Shown: piece by piece, positions 1 through 8,320 of the stretch
Position numbering within the stretch: the first letter of the stretch is position 1
Layout: every line of letters begins with the position of its first letter
Source of the DNA: a virus
Length of the DNA: 23,047 nt
Direction: 5' to 3' (one strand)
Virus record (IMG/VR): IMGVR_UViG_3300000115_000209
Coordinates: 1-23,047 of that record
The notes under the pieces: generated by a model
The model's input: the letters and a program-made list of their open reading frames with translations, nothing else
What the model was told of the DNA's origin: nothing
Database searches by the model: none
Program-made: the position numbers and the translations under genes

Positions 1-72
1 GTTGAATTGAAGAAAGCTGATGTTGAAGCGATTATAAAGCAGTATAAAAAATTTAAAAGTAAAATGGATTAA
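1..72 (+). CDS. 3' end of an unidentified gene (partial)
   Basis: Frame 1 is open from the window edge and ends at TAA 70-72, giving the last 23 residues of a protein. The tail is Lys-rich and probably helical (VELKKADVEAIIKQYKKF and a few more). It is too short to assign. In T4 the region upstream of the scaffold gene holds the portal (gp20), gp67, gp68 and the protease (gp21), so an upstream head gene is plausible, but that is inference from position only. The next gene starts 17 bases later, so they are probably co-transcribed. Confidence 0.5.
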   Translation, partial: VELKKADVEAIIKQYKKFKSKMD

Positions 73-89
73 TAAATAAGAGGTTAAAT

Positions 90-1133
90 ATGGCTAAAGG
101 TTTAGATTGTGGAACAAGTTATTATATAGCAGCCACAGAAAATAGTATAAAGAAACAAAGAAATGCATTCTTAACCGTAGATGGTGATATTGCCACGGTA
201 AAAAGAATGTTAAAAAGGCAACGAATACCTTATGTAGAAAAATCAGGTAAAGTTCACATCGTTGGCCAACATGCATTTAATTATGCACAAATTTTTTCAC
301 AAGCAGAATTAAAAAGACCTATGAAAAGTGGTCTTTTAAATCCTCAAGAAAAAGACGCATTACCAGTTTTATCTTCAATCATTAATGAATTGTTAGGTAA
401 ACCTAAAGGGAAGGACGAAGTTTGCGTGTACTGCGTCCCTTCAAAACCTATTGATGCTGACAGGGAAGTATCTTATCACGAAGATGTGTTAAGTACAATC
501 ATTGAGGGTGTTGGGTATAAAGCTAAAAAAATTGAAGAAGCAGTTGCTATAGGATATGAAGGGTTAGTAGATAATAATTTAACAGGTATTGCAATATCAA
601 TGGGTGCCGGAATGTGTAATATAGCAGTAATGTATAGTGGAATGACTGCATTATCATTCTCTGTTTCGAGAGGTGGAGATTGGGTTGACCAAAACACAGC
701 AGCAGATACAGGAATGCCAGTAGCAAAAGTAACTGCAACAAAAGAAACTTCAACGACATTAGATTTATCAAAATCACAAATGAATAATATTTATGATGAA
801 GATTCGGCAGAAGCTAATGTATTGATTGCTCTTCGTTCATATTATGGTGCTCTTGTTAATTACTTATTAACAAATCTAAAACATCAATTTGAAAATGCCG
901 AAAAAGTTCCTCAATTTCAAGAACCTGTACCAATTGTTATAGGTGGAGGGACATCATTAGTAAAAGGATTTATGGAAGTATTTATGGAACAATTCAATCA
1001 AGATGAGTTTCCGATACCTGTTTCTGAAGTAACTTTAATTGAGGATGCTCATACAGCCGTATCTCGTGGTTGTTTAAGTGAAGCACAACTTGTCGAGGAG
1101 GACGAAAATGAAAATAACGAAGAGTCAGCTTAA
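90..1133 (+). CDS. Actin/Hsp70-fold ATPase (MreB/FtsA/ParM-like)
   Basis: This 347-residue protein has the five nucleotide-binding motifs of the actin superfamily in order: phosphate-1 GLDCGTSYY (4-12), connect-1 EEAVAIGYEGL (149-159), phosphate-2 GIAISMGAGMCNI (166-178), connect-2 GGDWVDQ (195-201) and the adenosine motif PIVIGGGTSLVKG (281-293). Phosphate-1 and connect-2 look closest to FtsA/MreB. The usual acidic residue of phosphate-2 (the D of VVDIGGGT) is Ser170 here, so hydrolysis may be slow or altered. Actin-like filaments in phages and plasmids move or position DNA, but a role in this phage is not shown. The C-terminus is acidic and overlaps the next gene by 26 bases, implying translational coupling. 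It could also be an Hsp70-type chaperone relative used in head assembly. The fold is fairly certain; the function is not. Confidence 0.82.
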   Translation: MAKGLDCGTSYYIAATENSIKKQRNAFLTVDGDIATVKRMLKRQRIPYVEKSGKVHIVGQHAFNYAQIFSQAELKRPMKSGLLNPQEKDALPVLSSIINELLGKPKGKDEVCVYCVPSKPIDADREVSYHEDVLSTIIEGVGYKAKKIEEAVAIGYEGLVDNNLTGIAISMGAGMCNIAVMYSGMTALSFSVSRGGDWVDQNTAADTGMPVAKVTATKETSTTLDLSKSQMNNIYDEDSAEANVLIALRSYYGALVNYLLTNLKHQFENAEKVPQFQEPVPIVIGGGTSLVKGFMEVFMEQFNQDEFPIPVSEVTLIEDAHTAVSRGCLSEAQLVEEDENENNEESA

Positions 1134-2124
1134 AGAATTAATTATGAAAGAGATTCAAGAATCATCTTTCATGGATAAAGTTGACAAGGAAAAATCAAGT
1201 TTAAAAGCAAAATTCGATACAGAATTTAAAAAAAGTAAACCAGACGCATCTCCAGAAGAAGTAGAAGAATATGCAGCAATTGCTGCTAGAGCAGTACCGA
1301 TGGTTGCAAGAGCTTTAGCTACCGACAAGGCAATAGATAAAGTTACTGGTGAAGACGATGAAGTAGAAGAAGGTAAAGCATCAGCAATCAAAAAAGGTGC
1401 AAAAAAAGTATGGGATAAAGTAGGTCCGCATGTTAAGGATATTGCAAAACAAGCAGCTGCTGGAGCAATCGAAAAAGGTAGTCAGGCTGCAAAAGACAAA
1501 ATTAGTAAAAAATTAGGTAGTAATCAAAAAGATGAAATAGAAGAATTAAAATTTGGTTCTAAAGCACAATATAGTAAGTATAAGAAACAACACAATATAA
1601 AACCTGGTACTACAATTGATATTGCTGGTAAGAAATCTAAAGAAAAAGCACCATTGAAAACAAGTAAAGCGAGAGAGAAGGAAGCTGACAAATTTGCAGC
1701 TGATATGAATGCTAAAATGGATGCAGCTGAAAAAATGGCCGAAAAGGAAAAGAATAAAAATATATCTAAAAAGGATAAAAAAACTTTAGGTAAATTATCT
1801 AAAATGATGAAGACAGCTAATGAAGCATCTTTAAATAGAAAAGTAACGGTAAAAGAAGTCAAAAGATGGTTTAAATCTCTTGAAGAAAATCGTTATAAGA
1901 AAACTTATAATTCAGATGCCCGTAGAGTTTCTTGGATGGTGAATAATAATCTATCAGAAGATTATGATACAATGCCTATTTCAATGAAAAAGAAATGGCC
2001 ACAAGCTGCATATAAAAGAGAAAGATGGTTAGCAAAAGAATTTATTAAACATTTAGGTACTAATCAAGTTAATGAGATAAAATTAAGAGAATCAATCCGT
2101 AACATAATTAAGAGGTTAATATGA
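1108..2124 (+). CDS. Lys/Ala-rich phage protein, probably head-associated
   Basis: I start it at ATG 1108, which has a GAGGAGGA ribosome site (1095-1102) and begins MKITKSQLKELIMKEI. The in-frame ATG at 1078 lacks such a site. The product is 338 residues and very basic through the middle (Lys-rich helices, about 90-250), with a better-ordered Trp-containing domain near 255-330. The N-terminal K-x-S-Q-L-K-x-L-I module is a sequence type I associate with structural proteins of marine T4-like phages, and a similar amphipathic stretch (EIKLRESIRNIIKRLI) closes the protein. Its place between the ATPase and the scaffold, plus its charge, suggests an internal head or DNA-binding protein comparable in role to T4 gp67/gp68 or internal proteins. 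A DNA-binding partner for the upstream actin-like ATPase is an alternative. Neither is proven. It overlaps the next gene at ATGA. Confidence 0.75.
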   Translation: MKITKSQLKELIMKEIQESSFMDKVDKEKSSLKAKFDTEFKKSKPDASPEEVEEYAAIAARAVPMVARALATDKAIDKVTGEDDEVEEGKASAIKKGAKKVWDKVGPHVKDIAKQAAAGAIEKGSQAAKDKISKKLGSNQKDEIEELKFGSKAQYSKYKKQHNIKPGTTIDIAGKKSKEKAPLKTSKAREKEADKFAADMNAKMDAAEKMAEKEKNKNISKKDKKTLGKLSKMMKTANEASLNRKVTVKEVKRWFKSLEENRYKKTYNSDARRVSWMVNNNLSEDYDTMPISMKKKWPQAAYKRERWLAKEFIKHLGTNQVNEIKLRESIRNIIKRLI

Positions 2125-2372
2125 AAAGAAAAAAGAACTTTAGGAAGAAACGACCTAAAGATACAGCAGTAGGGTTATCAGTAACGGTTTATAACAATAA
2201 TGTAGAGGGAGCACTTAAATCATTAAAGAAAAAAATTAAAAGAGCAGATTTAATGATGGATTTACGAGAAAGAGAATATTATACAAAACCTTCAGAAACT
2301 AAAAGACATAAAAGAAATTTAGCTAAACTAAGAAATAAATATAATAATCAAAAAATTGAAAAAAACTTTTAG
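2121..2372 (+). CDS. rpsU: Ribosomal protein bS21 homologue
   Basis: This 83-residue, highly basic protein matches the bS21 pattern along its length: a beta-like start (LSVTVYNN), then ALKSLKKKIKRADLMMDLRE (31-50), REYYTKPSETKRHKR (51-65) and a basic C-terminal helix. The core corresponds to bacterial bS21 features (N-x-x-x-ALRRFKR, a REFYEKP-like stretch, a K/R-rich tail). bS21 sits on the 30S platform near the anti-Shine-Dalgarno end of 16S rRNA and helps initiation. Phage-encoded bS21 is known in marine phages and is thought to exchange into host ribosomes during infection. The ATG overlaps the preceding stop (ATGA) behind AAGAGG, so it is translationally coupled. An N-terminal Lys/Arg-rich extension of about 15 residues precedes the conserved part. 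Confidence 0.85.
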   Translation: MKRKKNFRKKRPKDTAVGLSVTVYNNNVEGALKSLKKKIKRADLMMDLREREYYTKPSETKRHKRNLAKLRNKYNNQKIEKNF

Positions 2373-2377
2373 TATTT

Positions 2378-2405
2378 TATAAATAACTATATATTTATAT
2401 ACATA
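2378..2405 (+). promoter_or_regulatory. Promoter-like box upstream of the head operon
   Basis: ATATATTTATATACAT (2389-2404) matches the box repeated before other transcription units in the window. Immediately 5' lies an exact T4-type late-promoter core, TATAAATA, at 2378-2385. Either could drive the scaffold and capsid genes, leaving a leader of roughly 100 nt before ATG 2512. The assignment rests on recurrence and position. Confidence 0.6.
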
Positions 2406-2511: not shown

Positions 2512-3600
2512 ATGAGTGATTTACTAAAAGAAGCAATTGCAGATGCAAAAGCAGTTCGTGAAACGGCTTTACAGAATGCTAAAGCAGCTCTTGAAGAAGC
2601 TTTTACTCCTCAATTGAAATCTATGCTAACAGCTAAATTGAAAGAAGACGATGACGATGTCGATATTGATATTGATGCTGGTAGTGATGATGAAGATGAG
2701 GATGAAGGTGACGACGGTGAAGCTGAAGAAGGCATGATGGGAACTGCAGCAGGAGCTGGCTTAGGTGCTTTAGTAGGTGGCGCGCCCGGTGCGATGATGG
2801 GTGGCGTAGCAGGTGATGCTATGACTGATGGTGAAGAGGAAACCGAAGAAGGTGAAATGGAACCAGAAGAAACTTACGAAGACGAAGAAGCTGAAGAAGA
2901 TATGCATGAAGAAGATAACCTTGATTTAGAGGCTGTCATCAGAGAACTTGAGCAAGAAATTGCAGAAGGTGAGCATGATGAAGACGAAGAAGGTGATGCT
3001 GAAGAAGGTATGCATGAATCTGAAGACCCTGTTGAAGAAGAATATGAAATCGATGAGAACACATTATCAGAAGATGAAGATGAAGATGACGATGATGATG
3101 ATGAACTTGACGAAGAAGTTGACACAACATCAGGTATCGGCTCTGGTACAGGAAGAGGAAGTACAGATAAATCTTCTGGTATCGGTTCAGGTGGTCAAGA
3201 AAAAGCTAAGAAAATGGAATCTGTTCAGGCTGAGTTAGATGAATATAAAGAAGCTGTTACTTACTTAAAAGACAAACTGCACGAAGTGAACATTTTGAAT
3301 GCAAAATTGCTTTACACAAATAAACTTTTCAAGGAGTTTAGTTTGGACAACAATCAAAAGTTAAAAGTTGTAGAAACATTTGATAGAGCTCAAACAACTC
3401 GTGAAATTAAATTAGTGTATTCTACAATTGCTGAGCAATTGAATGAGAATACAGGTATAACTAAAAGAAAATCAATAAAAGAATCAGCTAGTACGGCTGT
3501 TAGTTCAACTAAACCTTCTAAAGAAAGTACAAAAGTAATTTCTGAAGAGAGTGAAGTAGCTGACAGATTCAAAAAATTAGCTGGTATAATTAAAGGCTAG
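2512..3600 (+). CDS. 22: Prohead core scaffold protein, gp22-like
   Basis: This 362-residue, strongly acidic protein lies directly before the major capsid gene, as T4 gene 22 does. The N-terminus is helical (1-45). Residues 46-205 are mostly Asp/Glu tracts. The C-terminal part is a helix and coiled coil (about 230-305, with the stretch NILNAKLLYTNKLFKEF) followed by a helical tail, the region I recognise as gp22-like. It would form the temporary core around which the capsid shell assembles and then be degraded. Several L/I-x-E tripeptides, the T4 gp21 protease signature, occur (for example LKE, IRE, IAE, LSE, LDE). Unusually, a Gly/Ala zipper (74-102, including GAGLGALVGGAPGAMMGG) interrupts the acidic region. 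Start ATG 2512 has GGAG 7 nt upstream. The gene ends 10 bases before the capsid gene, and its stop codon overlaps the capsid SD. Confidence 0.85.
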   Translation: MSDLLKEAIADAKAVRETALQNAKAALEEAFTPQLKSMLTAKLKEDDDDVDIDIDAGSDDEDEDEGDDGEAEEGMMGTAAGAGLGALVGGAPGAMMGGVAGDAMTDGEEETEEGEMEPEETYEDEEAEEDMHEEDNLDLEAVIRELEQEIAEGEHDEDEEGDAEEGMHESEDPVEEEYEIDENTLSEDEDEDDDDDDELDEEVDTTSGIGSGTGRGSTDKSSGIGSGGQEKAKKMESVQAELDEYKEAVTYLKDKLHEVNILNAKLLYTNKLFKEFSLDNNQKLKVVETFDRAQTTREIKLVYSTIAEQLNENTGITKRKSIKESASTAVSSTKPSKESTKVISEESEVADRFKKLAGIIKG

Positions 3601-3610
3601 GAGAAATAAA

Positions 3611-5296
3611 ATGTCAAATTACATTAATGAAGCTTTATTAGATTCTTCTAACTCAAATCTTAAGGCAAAACAAGAAGAGGCAAACCAACTCGTTGGAAAA
3701 TGGGAAAAAACAGGTCTTCTTGAGGGTCTTAACGAAGAGTTTAAGAAAAATAGTATGGCTATGTTGTTAGAAAATCAGGCTAAACAACTCATCAATGAGT
3801 TCTCTAATACGAGTCCAAATGCGGGCTCTTTAGGAGGTTCATATAAAGGTGATGAAGAATGGTCTGGTGTTGCACTACCGTTAGTTCGTAGAATTTTCGG
3901 TGAAATAGCAGCACAAGAGTTTGTTTCTGTTCAACCTATGAATCTACCATCTGGTCTGGTCTTCTATCTTGACTTCCAACACGGAAAATCAAGAGGTGGA
4001 TTCACAGCAGGTGATTCAATTCATGGTAAAACAGGACCTTTCTCTCCATCAGGTTCATCAGCTCCATTTGGAGAAGGTGGATTTTATGGTGTAGGAAAAT
4101 ATGGATACACGGTAAGTACAGGTTCAGACGCTACTTTAGATATAGCATCTGATGGTATTGCTACACATAAAAACATTAACTTCGATTCAGAACTTACATC
4201 TTCTGTAAACGCAGGCAAACTTAGAGTTGCAACTTCTGTGGTAACAGATACAACTATCGATGGTGGTGCTATCAGAGCGGCTATATGGTCATCTGGTTCA
4301 AAAGTACTTAACACGGTAGGTGATGGAACAGCAGCTGAAAGAGGTGGTGTTTATCAAGTATATCCTCAATACACAACTATAACAGGTAATGATGGTGATG
4401 CATCAAGAACAATAACTTGGATTTATTCAGGTTCGGCAGCAGTACTTGACGAGACTATTGAATTAGACTTCGTTAAATTAAACACAGAGGCTTCAAGAGG
4501 TGATTTTGAAGACAAAGGTGGTGATGCTACTACTGATTCATTAACAATACCTGAAGTAGACTTGAAACTAAAAAGTCGTCCAATTGTTGCTAAAACTCGT
4601 AAGTTGAAAGCAGTATGGACACCTGAGTTAGCTCAAGACTTGAATGCTTATCATTCAATCGACGCTGAAGCTGAATTAACATCTATGTTAAGTGAGTACA
4701 TTTCAATGGAAATTGATTTAGAAATCTTAGATATGTTAATCAACGATGCTGTAACGGTTGATTACTGGTCAGCTAAAGTTGGTAAGCACTATAACTCAAG
4801 TACAAGTGCTTTTGAGACGGTCACAGACGGTCTTGCATATACAAGATTCGAATGGTATCAAACTCTTGTTGAGAAAATCCAGAAGGTTTCTAATGAAATC
4901 CACAGATTAACTCTTAGAGGTGGTGCTAATTTCGTTGTTGTTTCACCAAAAATAGCAACAATCTTAGAATCAATACCAGGATATGCAGCTAATACAGATG
5001 GTAATAAAGCTCAGTTTGCGATGGGTGTTTCAGCAGTAGGTTCAGTAGCCGGTAGGTTTACCGTTTATAAGAATCCTTATATGACTGAAAACACAATCCT
5101 AATCGGGTTTAGAGGAAGTAGTTTCCTTGAAACAGGTGCAGTTTATGCTCCGTATGTACCACTTATTATGACTCCAATGGTATATGACCCAAGTGACTTC
5201 ACTCCAAGAAAAGGTGTGATGACACGATATGCTAAGAAAATGATTAGACCTGAATTTTATGGAAAAATTCATTGTTCTGATTTAAACCTAGTGTAG
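3611..5296 (+). CDS. 23: Major capsid protein, gp23-like
   Basis: This 561-residue protein (T4 gp23 is 521) forms the hexameric shell lattice of the head. Recognisable gp23 features are the region with VRRIFGEIAAQEFVSVQPMN (about 93-112), followed by SGLVFYLDFQHG, and the C-terminal stretches FRGSSFLETGAVYAPYVPLI and the MIRPEFYGKIHCSDL end. The N-terminal arm carries an INE sequence ending at Glu63, close to the T4 gp23 maturation cut (after Glu65), so cleavage by a gp21-type protease after 3799 is predicted. The mature form would be about 498 residues. No protease gene lies in the window; it is presumably upstream. SD AGGAG (3599-3603) overlaps the scaffold stop codon. A Gly/Ser/Thr-rich beta segment (about 150-310) probably forms the insertion domain. 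A strong terminator follows. Confidence 0.96.
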   Translation: MSNYINEALLDSSNSNLKAKQEEANQLVGKWEKTGLLEGLNEEFKKNSMAMLLENQAKQLINEFSNTSPNAGSLGGSYKGDEEWSGVALPLVRRIFGEIAAQEFVSVQPMNLPSGLVFYLDFQHGKSRGGFTAGDSIHGKTGPFSPSGSSAPFGEGGFYGVGKYGYTVSTGSDATLDIASDGIATHKNINFDSELTSSVNAGKLRVATSVVTDTTIDGGAIRAAIWSSGSKVLNTVGDGTAAERGGVYQVYPQYTTITGNDGDASRTITWIYSGSAAVLDETIELDFVKLNTEASRGDFEDKGGDATTDSLTIPEVDLKLKSRPIVAKTRKLKAVWTPELAQDLNAYHSIDAEAELTSMLSEYISMEIDLEILDMLINDAVTVDYWSAKVGKHYNSSTSAFETVTDGLAYTRFEWYQTLVEKIQKVSNEIHRLTLRGGANFVVVSPKIATILESIPGYAANTDGNKAQFAMGVSAVGSVAGRFTVYKNPYMTENTILIGFRGSSFLETGAVYAPYVPLIMTPMVYDPSDFTPRKGVMTRYAKKMIRPEFYGKIHCSDLNLV

Positions 5297-5403: not shown

Positions 5404-6582
5404 ATGCCAAAATCAGAATTTGTATATACAGACCCAACAATACAAACATCAGCCAAAGGTGATACACCATTTGGACTATATGATGCAGATGGGACTTTTG
5501 TATCTGAGTCAATAGAAGTATGTAGATATGTAGCTAAAAAATTAGGACATCCAGTTATGCAATTGGAAATACCTAGTTCATCTATGTATGCTTGCTTTGA
5601 AGAAGCGACATCAGATTATTCAACACACATTAATAATTATAATATCAGAAATTGGATGTGGAATCATTATTCTAATTCAGATAAAATTTCAGGTTCAATG
5701 AGTACTGGTTCTATTAGCCCAACTAAACCAGTAGGGGGAAGTTCATTTTACTTATCTGATACTTATGGAACATTTGCAAATGTAGGTGGAGATACCACTT
5801 TACATACAGGTTCAATAGATTTAACGGATAAACAACTTTATGATTTACCTACAGAAGCATCATTTTCTGCAGCAGACCATTCTAATAAAACTTTGGAAAT
5901 ACAAAAAGTATTTAATGATGGCCCGTCTGCTATAACAAGATTTTATGACCCATTTGCAGGTTCATTTGAACAAAGAAATATGTTAGATTCATTTGGAATG
6001 GGAGGTTCGGCTCCAGCAGTTTCATATGTTATGAGACCAATATCACACGATATAACAAGAGCTCAAGCAATTGAAACAAATGACAAGATTAGAAAATCAC
6101 AATATTCATTCGAATTAGTGAATAATCAATTAAGACTTTTTCCAAGACCTAGTAAAAATGATAAAGGTACAAAAGTTTGGTTTAATTACTATGTAAGAGA
6201 AGAGAGAGTAAATTTATCATCTACATATACACAAGACAAAACTACAGACCCAAGTAATGTACCGTACAAATTTATAACTTATGAAGAAATAAACGCGTCT
6301 GGTAGACAATGGATAAGACGATATACATTAGCTCTCACAAAAGAATTATTAGGTATAATTAGGTCAAAATACTCAAGTATGCCTATCCCAAATGGAGAAG
6401 TTACTTTAGATGGAGAAAGTTTGAAGGCAGAAGGTAGAGAAGAAAAAGCAATACTAATAGAAGAATTACAAACATTCTTAGAGTCAGTATCATTAACAGA
6501 GAAAGCTAGAGCAGAAGCTGAAGAAGCGAATGCACAACAAGAAGTATTAGCTAAAGCACCATTAAAAATATACATAGGATAA
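5404..6582 (+). CDS. Neck/head-tail connector protein
   Basis: This 392-residue protein starts at ATG 5404 behind GGAG. The N-terminal region (about 23-85) has LYDADGTFVSESIEVCRYVA and then a CFEEATSDYSTHINNYNIRN helix. The C-terminal region (about 300-375) has RRYTLALTKELLGIIRSKYS followed by PIPNGEVTLDGESL and an acidic helix. I associate this N- and C-terminal pattern with connector proteins of T4-like marine phages that bind beneath the portal. In T4 order, the place after the capsid and before gp15 is held by gp13 and gp14, so a gp13-type neck role is the best guess. The middle (about 95-230) is Ser/Thr/Gly-rich and looks like an insertion. It is followed after 4 bases by the next gene. 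Confidence 0.6.
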   Translation: MPKSEFVYTDPTIQTSAKGDTPFGLYDADGTFVSESIEVCRYVAKKLGHPVMQLEIPSSSMYACFEEATSDYSTHINNYNIRNWMWNHYSNSDKISGSMSTGSISPTKPVGGSSFYLSDTYGTFANVGGDTTLHTGSIDLTDKQLYDLPTEASFSAADHSNKTLEIQKVFNDGPSAITRFYDPFAGSFEQRNMLDSFGMGGSAPAVSYVMRPISHDITRAQAIETNDKIRKSQYSFELVNNQLRLFPRPSKNDKGTKVWFNYYVREERVNLSSTYTQDKTTDPSNVPYKFITYEEINASGRQWIRRYTLALTKELLGIIRSKYSSMPIPNGEVTLDGESLKAEGREEKAILIEELQTFLESVSLTEKARAEAEEANAQQEVLAKAPLKIYIG

Positions 6583-6586
6583 TATT

Positions 6587-7060
6587 ATGTCAAGAACATC
6601 ACCATTTTTCTTACCACAAAAAGAATTTGATTTAATTAATTCAATGAATGAAGAATTGATTGACGAGATTGTTGGACAATCCGTTGATGTGTATAAGCTT
6701 AGTATAGATAATACAGAAGAAAATTTATATGGGGAATCAACAACAAAATATTATGATGTTGGTTTTAGAGTTAATTGTTTAATTATGTATAATGAACCTG
6801 AAGTAACACAAGATGAATTTGGTGTTGATATGGCTGGTGAAATAGAAATGTATTTTCAAAGACAAAATTTATCAAGTGGTTCATTAAACTTCTATCCAGA
6901 AATTGGAGATATTATAGATTGGAATGATGGGTATTGGGAAATCAATGGAACAACAGAACCTCAATTAATTGCTGGTCATCCGGCATACAAACATCAAATT
7001 AAAGCAACTGCTCATAAAGCTAAATTATCATCATTGCAAATTGAAGAGAGACCAAGATAA
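6587..7060 (+). CDS. Head closure/neck protein, gp14-like domain
   Basis: This 157-residue protein has a mostly beta C-terminal half containing YPEIGDIIDWNDGYWEINGT (about 103-122), which resembles the EGDLIYF...FEI region of T4 gp14 and the head-closure proteins that seal the portal channel. The N-terminal helical part includes IVGQSVDVYKLSIDN (about 28-42) followed by NLYGEST, a combination I recognise from marine phage head-completion proteins. At 157 residues it is shorter than T4 gp14 (about 256), so it would be the core domain only. It lies between the connector and the gp15-like gene, as expected for a neck subunit. Its stop overlaps the next start as TAATG. Confidence 0.6.
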   Translation: MSRTSPFFLPQKEFDLINSMNEELIDEIVGQSVDVYKLSIDNTEENLYGESTTKYYDVGFRVNCLIMYNEPEVTQDEFGVDMAGEIEMYFQRQNLSSGSLNFYPEIGDIIDWNDGYWEINGTTEPQLIAGHPAYKHQIKATAHKAKLSSLQIEERPR

Positions 7061-7464
7061 TGGCTATTCAACAGATAACAAAAAAAATAATTATAAAACA
7101 CGATACTGCAAATCCTAATTATAAAGCAGATAAAATCGTTGAAAAACCTAAACCTGTCATAAATGGTAATAGTGTAAAAAATAAAGAAGAAGGTGTATAT
7201 CAAGGTGTTACAGAACAAGTAACCTCTAATGTATATGGTGAAGAAATGAAAGATATGATGAGTTCTATGTTAGGTAAACTCGATAAGATTAAAGTTCAGA
7301 ATGGTAATATTAATGTATATGACGAATCTATAGAAGTTGATATAAAGAGAAATATTTTTTTAGCTAAACCTGATGAGGCAAAAGTTAAAATTGATAATGT
7401 AAAAAAAGGTAAAGTAAATAATAAAGTCAATAAATTAAGAGCATTGAGAAAAAATGGCAATTAA
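7060..7464 (+). CDS. Hypothetical protein in the neck operon
   Basis: This 134-residue basic protein was not recognised. It begins with a beta-like stretch (ITKKIIIKHD). The middle helix contains GEEMKDMMSSMLGKLDKI (about 60-77), then a short beta stretch (NGNINVYDESIEVDIKRNIF) and a Lys/Asn/Arg-rich tail. No signal peptide or membrane segment is seen. It is coupled to its neighbours at both ends: its ATG overlaps the previous stop (TAATG) and its last 11 bases overlap the next start. That coupling suggests a minor structural or assembly protein made in step with the neck proteins. Confidence 0.7.
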   Translation: MAIQQITKKIIIKHDTANPNYKADKIVEKPKPVINGNSVKNKEEGVYQGVTEQVTSNVYGEEMKDMMSSMLGKLDKIKVQNGNINVYDESIEVDIKRNIFLAKPDEAKVKIDNVKKGKVNNKVNKLRALRKNGN

Positions 7465-8320
7465 ACCTATAAATAATAAATCGTTAATTAGTAGTCAACT
7501 TGTTAATAGAGGTGTTCAAACATCTACTAAAGATATAAACAATCGTTCAGAATTACAAAGGTCAGGAGACACTAATCAAGCAATGTCTTTTACACCAGGT
7601 GGTAATCTATCTGAAAATTATGCAGTAACATTAAAAGATATAGATGGTTCAGTAATGAATTTTATAAAAAATATTATAAGACCCACAATTAAAGAAAATG
7701 GTGAAGTATTTAAAGTTCCTATTATGTATGGCAACGAAGAGAGATGGAAATCTGCTAGAAAAAGAGGAGTTATTAGAGATAAAAAAGGTGCTTTATTATT
7801 ACCATTAATAATGTTTAGAAGAACAGAAGTATCTAAAAATATGGATTTAGCTGTAGGGATGGAACACGATTTAAGACGCGAAGGTGAGGAGATGGTAGTA
7901 GGTAGACAATGGTCTAAAACGAACAAATATGATAGGTTTGCCGTACTACAAGGTCAAACGCCAGTCTATGAGTACTTAGTTACTACGGTACCTAATTATG
8001 TTAATTTGAATTATGAATTTGTATTATGGACAAACTTTATTGAACAAATGAATCCATTAGTTGAAACTTTCATAGAATTTAACAATCAATATTGGGGAGA
8101 CGGATTGGATACAAAATTTTATTCATTACTTGAGTCAATCTCAGACGCTTCAGAAATGAATCAAAATGGTGAAAGGTTTATTAAATCAACATTTAGTGTT
8201 ACTACGAAAGCATATTTACTACCAGAAGAATATAATTCTGTAGTATCTAACAAAATTTCTAATTTAAAAACAAGAAGGTCACCAGGTAAAGTAATTTTTT
8301 CAGAAAAATTAATTTCTTAA
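7454..8320 (+). CDS. 15: Tail completion/sheath stabiliser protein, gp15-like
   Basis: This 288-residue protein (T4 gp15 is 272) shows the gp15 layout: an N-terminal variable part, then FKVPIMYGNEERW (about 86-98, compare VPITYASKEHF in T4), LLLPLIMFRR (about 114-123), PNYVNLNYEFVLWTNFIEQM (about 178-197) followed by NPLVETFIEF, and a late beta region ending FIKSTFSVTTKAYLLPEE. gp15 forms a hexamer capping the finished tail and joins it to the neck. It occupies the expected place between neck genes and the sheath gene. The start ATG 7454 lies inside the previous gene and has only a weak GAGAA ribosome site, so it probably depends on coupling. The Lys/Arg-rich C-terminus is not part of the common core. 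Confidence 0.75.
   Translation: MAIKPINNKSLISSQLVNRGVQTSTKDINNRSELQRSGDTNQAMSFTPGGNLSENYAVTLKDIDGSVMNFIKNIIRPTIKENGEVFKVPIMYGNEERWKSARKRGVIRDKKGALLLPLIMFRRTEVSKNMDLAVGMEHDLRREGEEMVVGRQWSKTNKYDRFAVLQGQTPVYEYLVTTVPNYVNLNYEFVLWTNFIEQMNPLVETFIEFNNQYWGDGLDTKFYSLLESISDASEMNQNGERFIKSTFSVTTKAYLLPEEYNSVVSNKISNLKTRRSPGKVIFSEKLIS

Follow-up and report, generated by a model that had tools for sequence, protein, structure and literature searches.

Volactin is a recently named cytoskeletal actin of archaea, whose binding factors have been described as unknown (PMC10869688). The Haloferax volcanii protein, VolA (HVO_2015; PF25216), acts in cell shape; it assembles and disassembles in vivo, its filaments are ParM-like, with tips that touch the membrane, and it is the one volactin for which dynamic filaments in vivo are known (PMC10869688). 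ParM and AlpC are cytomotive actins that work with an adaptor (ParR and AlpA, respectively). ParR grips the end of the ParM filament through a 17-residue C-terminal peptide (PMC9178275), and AlpC is a phage actin with a role in DNA segregation (PMC4446434). The PhuZ tubulin of nucleus-forming jumbo phages is also a phage-encoded cytoskeleton that positions phage structures, although it has a tubulin fold, belongs to other phages, and has no sequence relation to the protein described here.

We analyzed a stretch of viral DNA of 23,047 nucleotides (IMG/VR record IMGVR_UViG_3300000115_000209, positions 1 to 23,047; the window). A first-pass annotation had recognized an actin-fold ATPase gene at 90..1133, directly before and cotranscribed with head genes. 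By profile, motif, and predicted fold, its product is a phage member of the volactin family, a filament-type actin. It shares the phosphate-2 motif S-x-G-x-G-M-x-N with VolA and is about 36% identical to haloarchaeal volactins; a membrane protein is encoded upstream of the phage gene, as one is directly upstream in archaeal loci. The phage gene differs in lying on a phage genome in a head-gene operon, and its upstream partner is a small single-pass protein, whereas the archaeal counterpart is DUF7139. The first-pass annotation had read the gene correctly in part, but it had missed the volactin family, the membrane partner (which lies outside the window), and a related tail on a neck-region protein at 7060..7464.

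The actin gene and its neighborhood

The features of the window that bear on the actin gene are as follows.

1..72, plus strand: upstream gene, 3' end only, cut by the window edge
90..1133, plus strand: volactin-family actin-like protein, 347 aa (PF25216 match, AlphaFold/PDB actin fold, dN/dS)
1108..2124, plus strand: leader-type protein gene, overlapping the actin gene
2121..2372, plus strand: ribosomal protein S21 homologue (Pfam PF01165, 1.9e-13)
2392..2403, plus strand: late-promoter-like element TATTTATATACA, with 2 mismatches to TATTTATATATG
2512..3600, plus strand: prohead scaffold, gp22-like (position and acidic composition)
3611..5296, plus strand: major capsid protein gp23 (Pfam Gp23, 1.2e-76)
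5404..6582, plus strand: head-tail adaptor (phrog_211)
7060..7464, plus strand: neck-region protein, 134 aa, predicted to be mostly disordered (tail-HMM match, 1.2e-12)
7321..7461, plus strand: shared C-terminal tail, about residues 88-134, ending ...IEVDIKRNIFLAKPDEAKVKIDNVKKGKVNNKVNKLRALRKNGN
7454..8320, plus strand: tail sheath stabilizer/terminator, gp15-like (Pfam and PHROGs)

The 347-aa protein matched Volactin (PF25216) over the full profile (1-321 of 321) with protein residues 1-332, at 261.6 bits against a curated cut-off of 35 bits (E value of 1.6e-77). The family's phosphate-2 motif and an actin fold accompanied this match. The broad Pfam model MreB_Mbl was passed as well but stood far behind (31.5 bits; cut-off, 27). 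The best NCBIfam match, MamK NF040964 (38.4 bits; E value of 7e-10), stayed below its cut-off of 400, as did the MreB models, with 19-22 bits against cut-offs of 293-366. PHROGs held no family for the actin, the membrane protein, or the neck-region protein, and a sequence search of the PDB with the actin-like protein gave chance matches only (T4 gp5 and EutJ). The AlphaFold model (pLDDT, 90.9; pTM, 0.89) has an actin fold, bearing out the first reading. Its closest solved structure is the MamK filament 5ljv (Z of 27.2; rmsd of 3.0 over 297 residues), followed by the BeeR filament, Mbl, and MreB (Z of about 26 for MreB). MamK, from magnetotactic bacteria, is thus nearest in both solved fold and NCBIfam models, but the phage actin has no magnetosome genes beside it. 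Among viral models, Gp506 of Bacillus phage G was the second-best structural match; it shares 14% identity, however, and was not retrieved as a volactin by sequence. Comparison with homologues gave a dN/dS of 0.05-0.11, indicating strong purifying selection. The open reading frame, selection, relatives, and Pfam match agree that 90..1133 is a real gene.

The surrounding genes are those of a T4-like (gp23) phage, with a gp23-type capsid, portal, protease, sheath, and tube in T4 order. The order in the marine clade of such phages (see below) is portal, prohead protease, several small leader-bearing proteins, membrane protein, and actin, followed by a leader-type protein, S21 (in most loci), scaffold, and gp23. 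The location in the head cluster given by the first-pass annotation was thus correct: the genes from the leader-type protein to gp23 lie downstream in the window, and the portal and protease genes are found upstream in homologous contigs, outside the window. Among phages with known hosts, the closest by capsid are Flavobacterium phage immuto and Microcystis phage Mel-JY01 (about 51-53% identity); both have the same head-gene order without the actin. An S21 homologue is also present among the head genes of Mel-JY01. Leaders of the type MKITKSQLKELIMKEIQE are common to many genes between protease and scaffold (upstream in loci L001-L084 and at 1108..2124 in the window) and resemble the capsid-targeting sequences of T4 that the prohead protease cleaves. 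The N terminus of the 1108..2124 product, MKITKSQLKELIMKEIQESS, likewise appears to resemble the T4 capsid-targeting/protease-site leaders, and the proteins with MKITKSQLKELIMKEIQE leaders may form a large set of internal, injected proteins.

Elements like TATTTATATATG occur in intergenic gaps at 2392, 5370, 8352, 8760, 10761, and 11396, before structural genes; at several gaps the element directly follows terminator-like hairpins, and in the window it precedes the neck and sheath genes. In one related contig (L002), it heads the long actin-containing operon and also precedes the neck genes and the sheath gene. With two mismatches allowed, its counts were clearly above chance only in the window, and this candidate late promoter differs from that of T4, TATAAATA. 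Its placement would fit late expression of the actin operon, and cotranscription of actin and head genes is likely, as had been proposed.

The membrane partner and the tail shared with the neck-region protein

Of the marine loci that extend 800 bases or more beyond the actin on the upstream side, every one (66/66) encodes a motif-bearing membrane protein there. The protein is about 100 aa long, has a single hydrophobic segment in its N-terminal part, and ends in a basic tail. Its gene mostly overlaps the actin gene or lies within a few bases of it, and otherwise within about 2 kb. The left edge of the window falls just short of it; in L001 and L002, it is the next gene upstream of the homologue of the gene at 1..72. 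Over its last ~45 residues, the membrane protein is homologous to the neck-region protein's tail. An HMM of the membrane-protein tails matched the neck-region protein at 1.2e-12, and reverse searches agreed; cross-matches between separate tail HMMs were mostly 1e-5 to 1e-13 (weakest, 1.8e-3), and none of 3,400 shuffled tails matched. The consensus end of the common tail is ...KGKVKTQKDKLKxLRRG. AlphaFold predicts the neck-region protein, at low confidence (pLDDT, 54.7), to be mostly disordered, with a C-terminal helix at 122-131. The HMM found no further tail-bearing open reading frame in the loci, and the 114- and 130-kb contigs have exactly two copies each, one on the membrane protein and one on the neck-region protein.

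The tails and the actin also occur together. Among contigs selected by capsid and covering both sites, 53 had neither actin nor neck tail, 5 had both, and none was mixed; the tail was absent from 51 contigs of the Mel-JY01 side, and neither tail is present in relatives that have the same head genes but no actin. Since the marine carriers form one clade, this co-occurrence shows joint gain, not contact, and a single acquisition, with no physical interaction, may explain why actin, membrane protein, and neck tail go together.

In the marine clade, the actin has a membrane protein as its neighbor, and the tail of that neighbor is found again on a product of the head-tail cluster. This arrangement suggests that the phage makes its own cytoskeleton, which would assemble or position virus particles. 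In the model that we favor, phage volactin would probably be made late, in one operon with the prohead genes, and would polymerize into nucleotide-dependent filaments. Filament formation had been suggested in the first-pass annotation and is still the best guess, strengthened because the cellular family member makes dynamic filaments (PMC10869688). The small single-pass protein would likely tether the filament to the inner membrane, where T4 proheads are built around the portal (PMC9958956), and the disordered neck-region protein would tie the same filament to heads, tails, or the head-tail junction. Both adaptors would grip the filament through the same C-terminal helical tail, in the fashion of ParR and ParM, and the outcome would be a membrane-anchored filament that positions or organizes virion assembly. 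We put the probability of this whole model, a late, membrane-tethered volactin filament that links virion parts to the membrane with the common tail as the actin-binding peptide, at about one in two.

Several observations could also fit a filament that reshapes or anchors host structures (DNA, membrane, or cell shape), with the position among head genes reflecting late expression only. The role of Haloferax volactin in cell shape is in keeping with this, as is the membrane partner fixed beside the actin, and late operons also hold nonvirion genes, such as S21. However, one of just two tail-bearing proteins sits among the neck genes, and the genes flanking the actin are head genes; we regard host remodeling as unlikely, while giving it some weight. 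The common tail could instead bind portal, neck, or capsid rather than actin. The two tail-bearing proteins would then be a pair that binds the portal or neck at the same site, the membrane anchor first and the neck protein later, with the actin as an independent neighbor. An anchor and a neck protein with one peptide would fit the release of T4 proheads from the membrane with no need of an actin (PMC9958956). This explanation is doubtful given the absence of both tails from the actin-less relatives with the same head genes, the usual overlap of the membrane-protein and actin genes, and the presence of related tails beside volactins in organisms without these head genes.

Serine at the phosphate-2 position

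The first-pass annotation had placed and numbered Ser170 correctly. The adenosine loop GGGTS is at residues 285-289, and the codons of three further residues of the nucleotide site, Ser170 included, are as follows.

105..107, plus strand: codon of Asp6, the phosphate-1 acidic residue, invariant
537..539, plus strand: codon of Glu150, the connect-1 acidic residue at the place of the catalytic Gln/Glu
597..599, plus strand: codon of Ser170, at the place of the phosphate-2 Asp (Ser in 273/273 homologues)

The classical phosphate-2 motif of actins is D-x-G-x-G-T-x-[DE]; the stretch from Ser170, S-M-G-A-G-M-C-N, differs from it at three positions. Position 170 was Ser in every row of an alignment of 273 phage and cellular homologues (82 from marine phages, 81 and 31 from two large-phage groups, and 79 cellular). 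Asp6, Asn177, Asp197, Asp200, and Lys218 were likewise invariant, and Glu150 had a single exception (Lys). The peptide patterns used to scan for viral homologues skipped residue 170, and all of the sequences retrieved had Ser. One genome-scan pattern contained Ser, but 35 cellular sequences outside that pattern have it too, as do volactins found by the Pfam model only, which came from seven further Haloferax genomes and from other genomes. Every volactin examined carries S-x-G-x-G-[ML]-x-N. The invariance across homologues rules out a rare variant or a sequencing error, and no homologue with Asp at 170 appeared. Because Ser is invariant in phage and cellular homologues alike, these alignments identify Ser170 as a hallmark of the volactin family and not a lesion. 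The oddity noted by the first-pass annotation is therefore real, but it is the norm of a known family, and the proposal of an ATP-bound switch peculiar to this protein finds no support, since archaeal volactins have the same residue.

MamK has Asp161, which we take to be the phosphate-2 Asp, where volactins have Ser. Replacement of this conserved ATPase residue by Ala blocks filament dynamics (PMC5059902), which counts against our model and, with the Ser itself, would fit a nonpolymerizing ATP-bound switch or a degenerate actin. However, Ser is universal in a family whose Haloferax member is dynamic in vivo, and purifying selection on the phage gene is strong, so such a static protein is very unlikely. 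Volactins of the genus Haloferax carry Ser at phosphate-2 and that of H. volcanii is dynamic; Ser alone therefore implies neither a dead nor a static protein. How volactins achieve their dynamics without the Asp that MamK needs is a biochemical question posed by the universal Ser. Movement of phage genomes by a DNA segregation system like those of AlpC or ParM, for which the precedent of AlpC and the ParM-like volactin filaments would speak, is less probable again, as the neighbors are head and membrane genes, the adaptors would be the membrane and neck-region proteins, and no DNA-binding adaptor or repeat centromere was seen among them.

Volactins and tail-like peptides in other phages and cells

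The description of the gene as unusual for a T4-like phage holds against isolated phages, as the INPHARED phage records gave only two matches (uncultured phages of 485 and 595 kb), but not against uncultured marine relatives, among which the gene is common. IMG/VR held at least 125 close relatives of the actin on marine-type contigs, a second, large-phage group of at least 108 members on contigs of up to 533 kb, and a third, also of large phages, with 30 members on contigs of up to 529 kb. Cellular volactins occurred in haloarchaea, Methanosarcinaceae, Archaeoglobaceae, and Altiarchaeales among the archaea and also in Omnitrophota, Planctomycetota, Desulfobacterales, Acidobacteria, Chloroflexota, and Patescibacteria. 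In a quick, unrooted maximum-likelihood tree, the phage volactins fell into three clades, each with full support and a long branch, and cellular sequences lay between the clades, a topology compatible with separate acquisitions. The clades correspond to marine T4-like phages, a label that rests on capsid relatives and on contig sources as far as seen, and to two large-phage groups (hugeA and hugeB). Volactin was known before as an archaeal cytoskeletal actin; what is new is the three clades in phages. Our literature searches, whose coverage was incomplete, found no report of phage volactins, and a 2026 review of jumbo phages does not mention phage actin.

Thirteen Omnitrophota and Planctomycetota loci encode two tandem volactin paralogues, one of ~330-440 aa and a larger one of ~470-660 aa with an extension. 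In a Candidatus Pelagibacter MAG, one short contig encodes an actin with 92% identity; it probably is a piece of a phage genome that was misbinned.

An HMM built from marine phage tails only was run over the C termini of the gene families around other volactins (490 around cellular volactins and 217 in the hugeB group). The three best-scoring families at cellular loci all adjoin the actin. They are DUF7139, the membrane protein encoded directly upstream of volactin in haloarchaea (tail TVDDQTAKLKELRE); a gene of Omnitrophota that lies one or two positions after volactin (SSLEKLRKLRG); and, in Altiarchaeales, the gene that precedes volactin (AADKLRRLRK). DUF7139 genes lie directly upstream of archaeal volactins in 39 loci. 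The best match in hugeB was a gene two or three places upstream of volactin, with the tail DARNKLRQLRKG. Single E values of these cross-family matches were weak (about 0.005 to 0.2). When the columns of the model were shuffled (100 models), the score of DUF7139 was reached once, those of the other two main matches never, and the joint pattern never. Composition contributes to the similarity, because a reversed tail model still ranked DUF7139 first (7.6 bits versus 12.8 bits), and a family-level rank test with the full-tail model at the cellular loci was not significant (P = 0.24). The weak, partly compositional similarity across families counts against the model, as does the different small partner upstream in nearly all hugeA loci. 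This hugeA partner, of 67-105 aa and encoded just before volactin (L083-like loci), ends in W-[AE]-I-P-x-F...K-[IV]-x-F-G-K; its tail occurs in no second copy, nor does it match the marine tail convincingly.

A general volactin-binding helix is likely enough to test, judging from these tail sequences, but not established. In its widest form, the proposal is tentative, and we would give it somewhat less than even odds: the helix V-x-[DT]-[QA]-x3-L-[KR]-x-[LMI]-R-[KR] would bind volactin and would have been conserved in archaea, bacteria, and phages on adaptors that are otherwise unrelated (the archaeal DUF7139 membrane protein, the phage single-pass membrane protein, and the phage neck-region protein), and phage volactins would be genuine viral cytoskeletons coupling the assembly of virions to the membrane. 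If true, the peptide would name missing volactin partners in archaea. The marine clade, with its fixed membrane partner and common peptide, offers a small, testable system for volactin anchoring, and phage volactin may be another kind of viral cytoskeleton, in addition to PhuZ and AlpC.
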